Shown here: in pieces, positions 1,249-53,404 of the stretch
Numbering within the stretch: position 1 is the stretch's first letter
Layout of the letters: each line of letters starts with the position of its first letter
Origin: an uncultured Alphaproteobacteria bacterium
Lineage (GTDB): Bacteria > Pseudomonadota > Alphaproteobacteria > Rs-D84
Direction of reading: 5' to 3'
Assembly: GCA_949878575.1 (NCBI GenBank)
Contig: CATLAX010000001.1
Span: forward strand, 1 to 64,000
DNA: 64,000 nt
Notes under the pieces: generated by a model
Told to the model about the DNA's origin: nothing
The model's input: the letters and a program-made list of their open reading frames with translations, nothing else
The model's database searches: none
Position numbers and translations under genes: made by a program

Positions 1249-1275
1249 TTGCATTCAATATAAATTCATTATAAA
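1249..1275 (+). promoter_or_regulatory. putative ileS promoter
   Basis: TTGCAT is followed after 15 bases by TATAAA, and a second TATAAA lies at 1259-1264. Either -10 places transcription start only a few bases before the leader peptide ATG at 1288. Confidence 0.45.
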
Positions 1276-1287
1276 ATCAGCATTGAT

Positions 1288-1317
1288 ATGAATAAAAACA
1301 CCATAATTATTAAATAA
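1288..1317 (+). CDS. putative ileS leader peptide MNKNTIIIK
   Basis: This nine-codon reading frame holds three consecutive isoleucine codons (ATA ATT ATT) and then stops. It lies between a promoter-like sequence and an intrinsic terminator that ends just before isoleucyl-tRNA synthetase. That is the classic layout of ribosome-mediated attenuation: scarce Ile-tRNA would stall the ribosome on the Ile codons and favour read-through into ileS. No clear Shine-Dalgarno is visible, so translation may be leaderless. I did not resolve a convincing antiterminator helix. Function is inferred from position and codon content. Confidence 0.6.
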   Translation: MNKNTIIIK

Positions 1318-1345
1318 ATTCGGCACCGCGCTTTGGCACGTTGTC

Positions 1346-1371
1346 CGGGCGCATACGGCGCCCGTTTTTAT
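1346..1371 (+). terminator. terminator hairpin in the ileS leader (attenuator)
   Basis: CGGGCGC and GCGCCCG pair around ATACG and are followed by TTTTTA. The hairpin lies about 24 bases before the ileS ATG. The upstream gene is on the other strand, so this terminator can only act on the ileS transcript itself. Confidence 0.7.
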
Positions 1372-1393
1372 AAAAAACAAAAAGGCAGAACAA

Positions 1394-4300
1394 ATGGCAT
1401 ACCCAAAGACAGACCCGCGGGCGAACTTTCCGGCACTGGAACAGGAAATACTGGAATTTTGGCGCAAAGACGACACATTCCACAAATCACTGACCAAAAC
1501 AAAGCAGGGCCATCCTTTTTCATTTTACGACGGGCCGCCGTTCGGAAACGGTTTGCCGCACTGGGGCCATCTGGGCGTGTCCGCGGTAAAGGACATGGTA
1601 TGCCGGTATCAGACGATGAAAGGACGCTTTGTCCGGCGTGAACTGGGGTGGGACTGTCACGGCTTGCCGGCGGAAAACTCTGTTGAGAAAAAGCAGCAGC
1701 GCAGCGCCAAGGACATTGTCGCAAACGACGGCATAGCCGCATTCTGCGACATGTGCCGCACGGATGTAATGCGCTATACCACGGAATGGGAAAAATTTAT
1801 CGCGCGCATCGGGCGCTGGGTTGATGTCGGCGACGGATACGGATACAAGACTATGGATAAAAACTATATGGAATCCATGCTGTGGACGTTAAAGTCGCTG
1901 TATGACAAGGGCCTGTTGTACAAGGATTACAGCGTCAATCCGTTTGACTGGGTAAACGGGACGGTCGTATCAAATTCCGAGGCGTCACAGGATTACCGCG
2001 ACGTAGTGGACGACGCCGTTACCGTCTGGTTTGAACTGGAAAATGGCGACAGGGTCATGGCATGGACGACAACACCGTGGACACTGCCGGCGAACAGCGC
2101 ACTGGCGGTGAATCCGGCAATGAAATACGTCCGCATGCGCGACGCTGACGGCATGGTTTACATAATTGCCGAAACGCGGATAAAGGCGTATGAAAAACAG
2201 CTGGCCGCGGCGGAAAAAATAGGCGAGGTTATGGGTTCCGACCTGGTCGGGAAAAAGTACAAGCCGCTGTTTGACTATTATGCGAACACGTCCGATTTGC
2301 TCTACCAGGTAATCGGGGCGGAATACGTATCAGACGGCGACGGCACAGGCATTGTGCATATCGCACCCGCATTCGGTGCGGACGACTTTTGGGCGGCCAA
2401 AGCCGTTGATCCGAAATTTCCGGTTCTGCTAAACGTGGACAATTACGGAAACTTTGACGAAACCGTGCGCGATTTCGCAGGCGAAAACATATTCGCTGCA
2501 AACGGCCGGGTAATTGATTTGCTGAAATCACGCGGCCATGTCGTAAAAAAAGAACAGTACAAGCACAGCTATCCCTATGGCGACCGGTCAAAGGAAAAGT
2601 TAATCTACCGCGCGACGGATTCATGGTACATAGACGTGCCAAAGATAAAGGAAAAACTGCTGGCGAACAATGCAAAGGTTCATTGGACGTCGGCCGGCGA
2701 AAGATTCCGCAGCTGGATTGAAAACGCGCGGCCGTGGTCAATATCGCGCAACCGTTTCTGGGGAACGCCGCTGCCGATATGGCAGCGCGGGGACGAATAC
2801 AAAATATTCGGTTCAATCGCGGAACTGGAAGAATTCTTTGGAACAAAAATAAACGATCTGCACCGGCCGACGCTGGATGCGCTAAAGAAAGACGGATGGG
2901 AACGCATACCTGATGTTCTGGACTGCTGGGTGGAATCCGGATCCATGCCGTGGGCGTCACTGCATTACCCGTTTGAAAACAAGGAACGTTTTGACGCGAC
3001 ATTCCCGGCGGATTACATCATAGAAGGCCAGGACCAGACCCGCGGATGGTTTTATGCGCTGATGGTGCTGGCGACCGCAATGTTTGACGCGCCGGCGTTC
3101 CGCACCGTTTCCGCAAACGGAATGGTGGTGGATGAAAACAAGAAAAAGTTTTCAAAGTCACTGCAAAACTTTGTCAATCCTGAGGCCCAGATAGAACAAT
3201 TCGGCGCGGACGCAATCCGGCTGTTCATACTGGGGTCAAACTTTATGAAGGCGGAACCAGTTCCCGTGGACAAAGAGGGGAAAGTATTTGCAGAAACATC
3301 TAAAAACATTTTAACCCCGCTGTGGAACGCGTATCATTTCTTTACGCTGTATGCGAACGCCGGCAACATCACCGCCACAGACGACGTACACGGCGACAAC
3401 CCGCTGGACAAATACATACTGGCGGAATTAAACGAACTGATTGTTGTTGTTGACGCGGCGCTGGCGGAATACAAGCCGGACGCGGCCATTTCCGCATTCG
3501 TGCGTTTCCTGGACGTTTTAAACAACTGGTACATACGCCGCGGGCGCGCCCGTTTCTGGGACGAAGAACAGACGGCGTTTAACGTTCTGCACCACGTGCT
3601 GGTGACGGTGTGCCGCGCAATGGCGCCGTTTGCACCGTTTATAACGGACTATATATACCGCAATTTGACAGGCGGCGCATCCGTACACTTGACGGATTTT
3701 CCGACGGCGGAAAAATACGACGACGAAATCGTTACGGACATGCGACGTGTTCAGACAATAGTATCCGTTGGAAAACAGCTGCGCGAAAATTACCGTCTGC
3801 GCAACCGTCTGCCGTTGAACAAGATAACTGTGGCGGGCGTGAATATTCCGGAATACGCGGATATTATAAAGGACGAACTAAACGTCAAATCGGTGCTGTT
3901 TGCAGACGGCATTGACGCCGTTGCAGACAGTTTTGTGTATCTGATTACGCCGCGCATCGGGGCGCGCCTGGGTGGGGCGCTGCGCGAAATCATTCCGGCG
4001 GTAAAGCAGGGCAGATATGAAATCAGCGGCGACAAACTAACCGCGGCGGGCCACACGTTAAACGCGGATGAATTTGAAACACGTTTAACCGTAAAACCGG
4101 GTGTGACGGGCGCCGCGCTGCCGGACAATAGGGCGGTTGTCGTTTTGGATACCGAGGTTAACTCTGAACTGGTTGCAGAGGGTCTGGCGAACGACGCCCT
4201 GCGCTTTATACAGGACACGCGCAAGGCGGCGGGTCTGGATGTATCGGACCGCATACGCCTGACCTACAGTGCCGACCCGGCAATCGCCATGGCGATAGAG

Positions 4301-4420
4301 GCGCACAAAAAACGCATTATGCGCGATGCGCTGATAACGGAAATGACGGCCGGCGCCGGCGAATACGATACGGAGATAGAGGGCTATTCCCTGTCCGTGT
4401 CCGTGGAAAAGGTAAAATAA
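1394..4420 (+). CDS. ileS: isoleucine--tRNA ligase
   Basis: IleRS charges tRNA-Ile with isoleucine in the cytoplasm. The 1008-aa protein has the HIGH-type signature in the form PHWGHLG, the preceding FYDGPPFGNG block, the CP1 editing motif WTTTPWTLPAN, and the KMSKS-type signature as KKFSKS. The second KMSKS position is therefore phenylalanine in place of methionine. The anticodon-binding domain follows (NWYIRRGRARFW). The sequence style is that of the larger eukaryote-like IleRS type, known in some bacteria and often linked to mupirocin tolerance; that link is family knowledge and was not tested. It is preceded by a candidate leader peptide and attenuator. The small gene at 4432 and nth follow closely and are probably co-transcribed. 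Confidence 0.97.
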   Translation: MAYPKTDPRANFPALEQEILEFWRKDDTFHKSLTKTKQGHPFSFYDGPPFGNGLPHWGHLGVSAVKDMVCRYQTMKGRFVRRELGWDCHGLPAENSVEKKQQRSAKDIVANDGIAAFCDMCRTDVMRYTTEWEKFIARIGRWVDVGDGYGYKTMDKNYMESMLWTLKSLYDKGLLYKDYSVNPFDWVNGTVVSNSEASQDYRDVVDDAVTVWFELENGDRVMAWTTTPWTLPANSALAVNPAMKYVRMRDADGMVYIIAETRIKAYEKQLAAAEKIGEVMGSDLVGKKYKPLFDYYANTSDLLYQVIGAEYVSDGDGTGIVHIAPAFGADDFWAAKAVDPKFPVLLNVDNYGNFDETVRDFAGENIFAANGRVIDLLKSRGHVVKKEQYKHSYPYGDRSKEKLIYRATDSWYIDVPKIKEKLLANNAKVHWTSAGERFRSWIENARPWSISRNRFWGTPLPIWQRGDEYKIFGSIAELEEFFGTKINDLHRPTLDALKKDGWERIPDVLDCWVESGSMPWASLHYPFENKERFDATFPADYIIEGQDQTRGWFYALMVLATAMFDAPAFRTVSANGMVVDENKKKFSKSLQNFVNPEAQIEQFGADAIRLFILGSNFMKAEPVPVDKEGKVFAETSKNILTPLWNAYHFFTLYANAGNITATDDVHGDNPLDKYILAELNELIVVVDAALAEYKPDAAISAFVRFLDVLNNWYIRRGRARFWDEEQTAFNVLHHVLVTVCRAMAPFAPFITDYIYRNLTGGASVHLTDFPTAEKYDDEIVTDMRRVQTIVSVGKQLRENYRLRNRLPLNKITVAGVNIPEYADIIKDELNVKSVLFADGIDAVADSFVYLITPRIGARLGGALREIIPAVKQGRYEISGDKLTAAGHTLNADEFETRLTVKPGVTGAALPDNRAVVVLDTEVNSELVAEGLANDALRFIQDTRKAAGLDVSDRIRLTYSADPAIAMAIEAHKKRIMRDALITEMTAGAGEYDTEIEGYSLSVSVEKVK

Positions 4421-8637: not shown

Positions 8638-8664
8638 AAAGACCGTCGTGTGACGGTCTTTATT
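8638..8664 (-). terminator. hairpin between rplT and pheS
   Basis: GACCGTC and GACGGTC pair around ACAC and are followed on the minus strand by TTTGTTT. The T run is short, so termination may be partial and leave some read-through into pheST. Confidence 0.65.
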
Positions 8665-53268: not shown

Positions 53269-53404
53269 AAAGTTGTGGTTTGCGTGATGACGTGACTGAC
53301 ACCCACCGAGCGGGACCAAAACATTAAACGAAAGTTACAAGACGGGGTGGCACCGCGCATGGATTATTCCCAGCGCCCCCGGTATCACGAAAAAAGGGAC
53401 CGAA
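53269..53404 (+). promoter_or_regulatory. T-box-like leader of aspS
   Basis: GGGGTGGCACCGCG at 53344-53357 matches the T-box consensus AGGGTGGnACCGCG at 13 of 14 positions. Upstream, GTGG/CCAC encloses a small stem GCGT/ACGT and a loop with GAC (Asp) triplets, a possible short Stem I with specifier. Downstream, CGCCCCC can pair with the GGGG of the T-box, and CGGT/ACCG brackets the AAGGGA ribosome binding site. No T run occurs, so control would be at translation. T-boxes sense uncharged tRNA and are mainly Gram-positive elements. Stem I is much shorter than classical ones. Confidence 0.65.

Follow-up and report, generated by a model that had tools for sequence, protein, structure and literature searches.

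The 64-kb window analysed here (64,000 nt, by which we mean the whole stretch of DNA) comes from a 945-kb genome in two contigs that belongs to a member of Candidatus Enterousia (Alphaproteobacteria). This genus of the order Rs-D84 is reported to have genomes near 1 Mb and to lack amino-acid biosynthesis pathways (PMC12306168). The first plus-strand gene of the window is ileS, and a 106-nt stretch running from a short leader ORF's ATG to the ileS start holds the ORF, the hairpins and the terminator listed in Table 1 with the promoter and ileS. Since the neighbouring gene lies on the opposite strand, the leader belongs to ileS itself. This minus-strand neighbour (176-1168) encodes a Stealth-family protein (PF11380, PF17101) and is situated between the remnant of a tRNA-Thr gene and the ileS leader.

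Table 1. Coordinates of the ileS gene and of the elements upstream of it in the window.
Feature	Position	Strand	Basis
ileS, isoleucyl-tRNA synthetase	1394..4420	+	TIGR00392, 767 bits
Predicted sigma-70 promoter TTGCAT-17-TAAAAT	1249..1277	+	promoter scan
Leader peptide ORF MNKNTIIIK and stop codon, without Shine-Dalgarno	1288..1317	+	126 homologous leaders
Regulatory Ile codons ATA ATT ATT	1303..1311	+	comparison of 126 leaders
Hairpin 1:2 (pause or protector hairpin)	1322..1345	+	folding of 126 leaders
Antiterminator 2:3, GCGCUUUGGCA (1328-1338) with UGUCCGGGCGC (1342-1352)	1328..1352	+	
Intrinsic terminator 3:4, CGGGCGC-ATACG-GCGCCCG then T5	1346..1369	+	

The codons of the ORF are ATG AAT AAA AAC ACC ATA ATT ATT AAA TAA. 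The promoter scan returned TTTGCA-18-TAAAAT (1248-1277), which can equally be read as TTGCAT (1249-1254) and TAAAAT (1272-1277) with a spacing of 17; the end of the -10 box lies 10 nt 5' of the leader ATG. The promoter is a prediction without 5'-end data, and a transcription start at about 1283-1287 is likewise inferred from sequence alone. The terminator stem has 7 bp, all GC (1346-1364), and is followed by T5 at 1365-1369, leaving a gap of 24 nt to the ileS ATG. An initial sequence-only reading had placed a peptide with three Ile codons between a promoter-like sequence and a terminator 24 bases before ileS, and this description held.

No other short ORF with at least three consecutive Ile codons and a terminator exists on either strand of the window, and the same pattern did not occur in any of 60 order-2 Markov sequences of equal length. 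No Rfam family matches the ileS leader. Taken alone, the leader of the window folds no better than shuffled sequences (MFE z -0.74), an uninformative result, and the case thus rests on the comparison with relatives.

To this end 126 leaders were read directly, with three or more consecutive Ile codons as the search criterion; the same-genus and named-record sets overlap in part, and the 126 leaders do not represent 126 independent species. Of the same-genus ileS upstream regions, 32 were long enough to be assessed, and 31 of these contain the leader (L053 does not); Ile codons and terminator were found in 79 of 80 named records, partly from the same genomes, and most cases from the family's other genera have the leader as well. 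Same-genus records include the Candidatus Enterousia species L089 (which matches a contig of the same-genus genome G017), L123 and L133. The sequence-only reading had held that absence of the Ile codons or the terminator from close relatives would refute it; both are thus present in nearly all of them. A covariance model of the leader matched 164 of the 201 genomes of the order, all within this family of 183, and none of the 18 genomes in other families of the order. In a draw of 385 genomes from the class only four matches were obtained, all of them genus members. None of the Ile-rich short ORFs seen in the other families of the order has a terminator behind it, and a differently built leader is not excluded there.

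The leader is truly absent, with readable upstream DNA, from six genomes of the family (G034, G110, G189, G195, G196, and G197), and is therefore dispensable in them. The remaining non-matches to the covariance model are contig ends or assemblies without ileS, while the leaders of G191 and G193 are divergent. In G185, G186, G194, and G206 (L190, L192, L191, and L195, respectively) the same leader precedes a divergent IleRS of a different clade, with 44-50% identity to that of the window, and it is likely that the ileS coding gene was exchanged and the leader retained. Additionally, in G180, G200, G202, and G204 (L215, L218, L214, and L213) one gene is inserted between leader and ileS; named by eye, it is GNAT acetyltransferase-like in three of the four genomes and P-loop kinase-like in G200.

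The run of consecutive Ile codons in the 126 leaders is three to five codons long and mostly reads ATA-ATT-ATT-ATT. It has three codons in the window species and four in most relatives, a fourth Ile codon being found in 116 of the 126. The first codon of the run is ATA in 118/126, the second ATT in 108/126 and the third ATT in 123/126 leaders, while Ile usage within the ileS coding sequence is ATT 49%, ATC 32%, and ATA 20%. Codons 5' of the run vary, and the run is mostly followed by Lys, Arg, Glu or Gly and then the stop codon; apart from the Ile run there is almost no conservation of the peptide. ATA is read by a lysidine-modified tRNA-Ile and ATT by the GAU isoacceptor. From this general background, the fixed mix of ATA and ATT suggests, by inference, that both tRNA-Ile substrates of IleRS are monitored. 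According to one published model (PMC1183508), codon choice affects sensitivity.

Downstream of the stop codon, strand 1, strand 2 (UGCGCUUUGGC), strand 3 (GCUGGGGCGCA), and strand 4 (GCGCCC) follow one another and may form three mutually exclusive hairpins (pause, antiterminator, and terminator), each found in 123-124 of the 126 leaders. Hairpin 1:2 folds in 123/126 (mean -10.0 kcal/mol, median z -1.7), and the mean energies over the 126 leaders are -14.4 kcal/mol for the antiterminator 2:3 and -11.3 kcal/mol for the terminator 3:4, which share strand 3. The search for an antiterminator in relatives, suggested by the sequence-only reading, thus yielded one that competes with the terminator through a covarying shared strand. 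Column covariation on the 31 genus sequences was supplemented by triplet counts on the 126 leaders, and the latter revealed three-way changes from GCG to AUA (C to U in strand 3 and G to A in both partners), which affect one position in L052 and a second position in L071, L076, and L096. At least two separate three-way changes of the shared strand have therefore taken place. When the partners were slid by 1-3 columns, pairing of the antiterminator, 93.5% in register, did not exceed 63%, and that of the terminator, 97.3% in register, did not exceed 70%. The shuffle control on the 31 genus sequences was only marginal (covariation score, 25/500; paired cells, 98/500) because their columns hardly vary. 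The RNAalifold consensus contained the terminator and a fragment only, since a single fold cannot display alternatives.

In 115 of the 126 leaders, 7-9 nt separate the stop codon from the antiterminator's 5' arm. If the front edge of the ribosome is assumed to reach 17 nt beyond the P site, a ribosome positioned at the stop codon is predicted to block the antiterminator (mean P 0.16), and one at the Ile codons to leave it free (0.76-0.92). This masking depends on the assumed footprint, being intermediate at 15 nt and absent at 13 nt. With no ribosome on the RNA, the prediction favors the antiterminator for as long as strand 4 has not been synthesized (mean P 0.81), and basal termination in the absence of translation therefore depends on kinetics.

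We consider it very likely that ileS is controlled by ribosome-mediated transcription attenuation sensing charged tRNA-Ile. The sequences establish the codons, the ORF, and the hairpins together with their conservation. Dynamics and response are inference, and no expression data are available. The attenuation form recognized by the sequence-only reading is thus supported by the relatives and by the competing antiterminator, while regulation itself remains unproved. In the proposed mechanism, transcription would start just 5' of the leader ATG, a ribosome would load on the 5' end devoid of a Shine-Dalgarno (SD) sequence, and RNA polymerase would pause at hairpin 1:2. When Ile-tRNA is ample, the ribosome would reach the stop codon and cover the 5' arm of the antiterminator, so that the terminator would form and ileS would not be transcribed. 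When tRNA-Ile is uncharged, the ribosome would wait at the Ile codons, leaving this arm free to pair with the shared strand as antiterminator, and ileS would be transcribed. If this is true, more IleRS would be made in these gut bacteria only when loaded isoleucine tRNA runs short.

The start of the leader deserves separate consideration. An SD-like motif precedes 15 of the 126 leader starts vs. 120 of the 126 ileS starts. Of the relatives, 92 have no tRNA next to the leader, and in most of these the distance from the end of the -10 box to the leader ATG is 6-10 nt; transcription would therefore start at this ATG or a few bases 5' of it, an inference made solely from the sequence. In the other 34 leaders the ATG is found 9-21 nt behind a tRNA-Thr sequence, which is an intact tRNA according to ARAGORN in 30, cut by a contig end in two and degenerate in two (L008 and L058, same contig). 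By inference, tRNA processing would likewise leave only a short stretch before the ATG. In alphaproteobacteria, Caulobacter for example, leaderless mRNAs are frequent (PMC4117421). A near-leaderless start, itself only inferred, is unusual for a leader peptide and counts against the attenuator reading. A start downstream of 1288 had also been named as a refutation; the start is unmapped, and the promoter with its -10 box 6-10 nt before the ATG recurs among relatives. The arrangement makes it testable whether a leaderless ORF can couple the ribosome to RNA polymerase.

The window also holds a degenerate tRNA-Thr(CGT) on the plus strand (74-142), with an intact 3' half and a decayed 5' half, which ARAGORN does not call. 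Its place matches that of the tRNA-Thr found directly before the ileS leader in many relatives, and this decayed copy is shared by the sister species L008.

Among the alternatives, the hairpin and its U-tract could merely be the terminator of tRNA-Thr or of another upstream transcript, with an incidental Ile ORF and an ileS promoter further down. This is favored by the 34 of 126 leaders lying 9-21 nt behind a tRNA-Thr sequence, intact in 30. However, most leaders have no adjacent tRNA and show a promoter just upstream instead, and a plain terminator needs neither conserved Ile codons nor an antiterminator. Furthermore, in G110, where the leader has been lost, the same tRNA is followed by a simple hairpin of a different kind (L167, L217), and the tRNA remnant of the window has its own terminator and lies more than 1 kb away. 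We thus regard this explanation as very improbable.

Also very improbable is control by nascent-peptide stalling at the Ile run, by coupling to mRNA decay, by Rho, or at the level of ileS translation. Lys, Arg or Glu after the Ile run in most leaders indicates that some of the peptide is kept beyond Ile, and in these bacteria the leaders of thrS, hisS, and serS have no long U-tract and may act by another route. On the other hand, the ileS hairpin has a proper U-tract, the antiterminator is found at a near-constant distance from the stop codon, and the SD-like motif of ileS is outside the hairpins. Finally, a T-box riboswitch binding uncharged tRNA-Ile directly, as on ileS of Actinobacteria and Firmicutes, is suggested by the T-box-like aspS leader in the same window and by the resemblance of GGCACCGCGC at 1322-1331 to part of the T-box core, but is practically ruled out by the lack of any RF00230 match at 1150-1450 (E up to 10), by a leader too short for stem I and by a conserved open frame with start and stop codon. 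GGCACCGCGC itself was rejected as a T-box core, GGCAC not being conserved in relatives.

Attenuation of ileS remains the preferred reading, and leaders of other synthetase genes, sampled by family searches, were considered alongside it. A Thr-rich leader precedes thrS in all 29 assessable genomes (L222-L227, L297-L320), that of the window's own genome being MKKYMFVFTATTTTPLGV followed by a stop codon. A leader with His codons precedes hisS in most of 24 genomes (L246-L250, L341-L360), and an S-rich leader precedes serS in about ten (L228-L233, L321-L340); none was seen before serS in the genome of the window. In these three cases a short GC hairpin within the ORF follows the regulatory codons without a gap, the stop codon comes directly after it, and there is no long U-tract. 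They may represent a second architecture, the mechanism of which possibly differs from that of ileS. Short ORFs with Trp codons were found before trpS (L282-L286), and before lysS (L205-L212) a short ORF with Lys-Lys or Lys-Arg is accompanied by the invariant GUGCG..CC / GGACGCAC / GCGUCC-U6, a strictly conserved antiterminator and terminator. In a codon count blind to the cognate amino acid, the cognate ranked first with a strong excess for Ile, Thr, and His, first but weakly for Trp, third for Ser and fifth for Lys. Over the sampled synthetases the enrichment of cognate codons was weak for Ser, Trp, and Lys, none was found for Pro, Gly, Val, Leu, Tyr, and Phe, and the score was uninformative for Met, Cys, and Asp. 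Cognate leader peptides on serS, trpS, and lysS are considered likely. For metG (L266, L274), MRMYN or MRMHN, each with a stop codon, occurs behind a tRNA whose anticodon GAC was read by eye, and a leader peptide there is no more than a tentative possibility.

The sequence-only reading had also proposed that synthetase genes of this organism are under unusual leader devices, citing an aspS leader; this was borne out by cognate leaders on thrS and hisS and probably on serS, trpS, and lysS, while the aspS leader looks T-box-like. In the latter (53283-53403, plus strand; relatives L197-L204), a T-box core sequence, GGGGUGGCACCGCGC..GCGCCCC, occurs together with a GAUGUGACUGAC block that is conserved and includes a GAC (Asp) triplet. 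The RF00230 matches are weak (E 0.003-0.05) and below the gathering score, and the assignment is only a possibility. If it is a true T-box, it would be an unusually small one in an alphaproteobacterium. A terminator-like hairpin, GACCGTC-ACAC-GACGGTC with a T-run, was also noted on the minus strand (8641-8658) in the gap between a ribosomal-protein-like gene and pheS; it is conserved in six genomes (L287-L292), which show no clear Phe-rich leader ORF.

A bolder joint reading is that a reduced-genome, amino-acid-dependent lineage controls many of its synthetase genes via their own cognate leaders (ileS, thrS, hisS, serS, trpS, lysS, and perhaps metG), as Gram-positives do with T-boxes, and that either a promoter or tRNA processing gives rise to the near-leaderless 5' end on which the ileS leader is translated. 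We lean toward this view, if only slightly. The ileS attenuator points to a synthetase regulon of unusual breadth, with leader peptides taking the part that T-boxes play in Gram-positive bacteria. It also suggests that amino acids are sensed at the synthetase in organisms for which a lack of amino-acid biosynthesis is reported (PMC12306168). The ileS leader is supported by comparative data from more than 100 uncultured gut bacteria and, with covariation across three strands, offers a clean case on which to test attenuation.

The sequence-only reading knew of no such control for ileS, and neither leader-peptide control of ileS nor such a set of synthetase leaders was found in the papers searched, which left most subscription papers uncovered. 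To judge by these papers, the leader seems to be the first attenuator of the leader-peptide type reported for ileS. The search did return T-boxes on ileS, and attenuators or leader CDSs on trpS, leuS, hisS*, and pheST. The translational T-boxes on ileS of Actinobacteria (PMC1262725) share the gene and the expected signal, uncharged tRNA-Ile, but bind the tRNA directly without a ribosome, have no leader ORF and sequester the Shine-Dalgarno sequence rather than forming a terminator. The ilvGMEDA, ilvBN, and ilvB1 leaders (PMC1183508, PMC13236596) resemble that of ileS in having Ile codons (with Val and Leu), a terminator and an antiterminator, but precede biosynthesis genes and sense three amino acids, while here there are only Ile codons before a synthetase gene.

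Predicted leader-peptide control of synthetase genes, as in the ileS leader, has been described for the trpS and leuS attenuators of Streptomyces (PMC1262725), a small CDS before trpS in Caulobacter (PMC4117421) and the hisS*/hisZ leader in bacilli (PMC2965389). These systems concern one or two genes per organism, none of them ileS, whereas here ileS and at least thrS and hisS are involved within a single lineage. Finally, pheST of E. coli and other gamma-proteobacteria, well known for its pheM leader (cited in PMC1262725), also has a cognate-codon leader peptide, an antiterminator and a terminator before a synthetase gene. It differs from the ileS leader in amino acid, gene and bacterial class, and the pheM leader has an ordinary ribosome-binding site, while the ileS leader described here is SD-less and close to its inferred 5' end.
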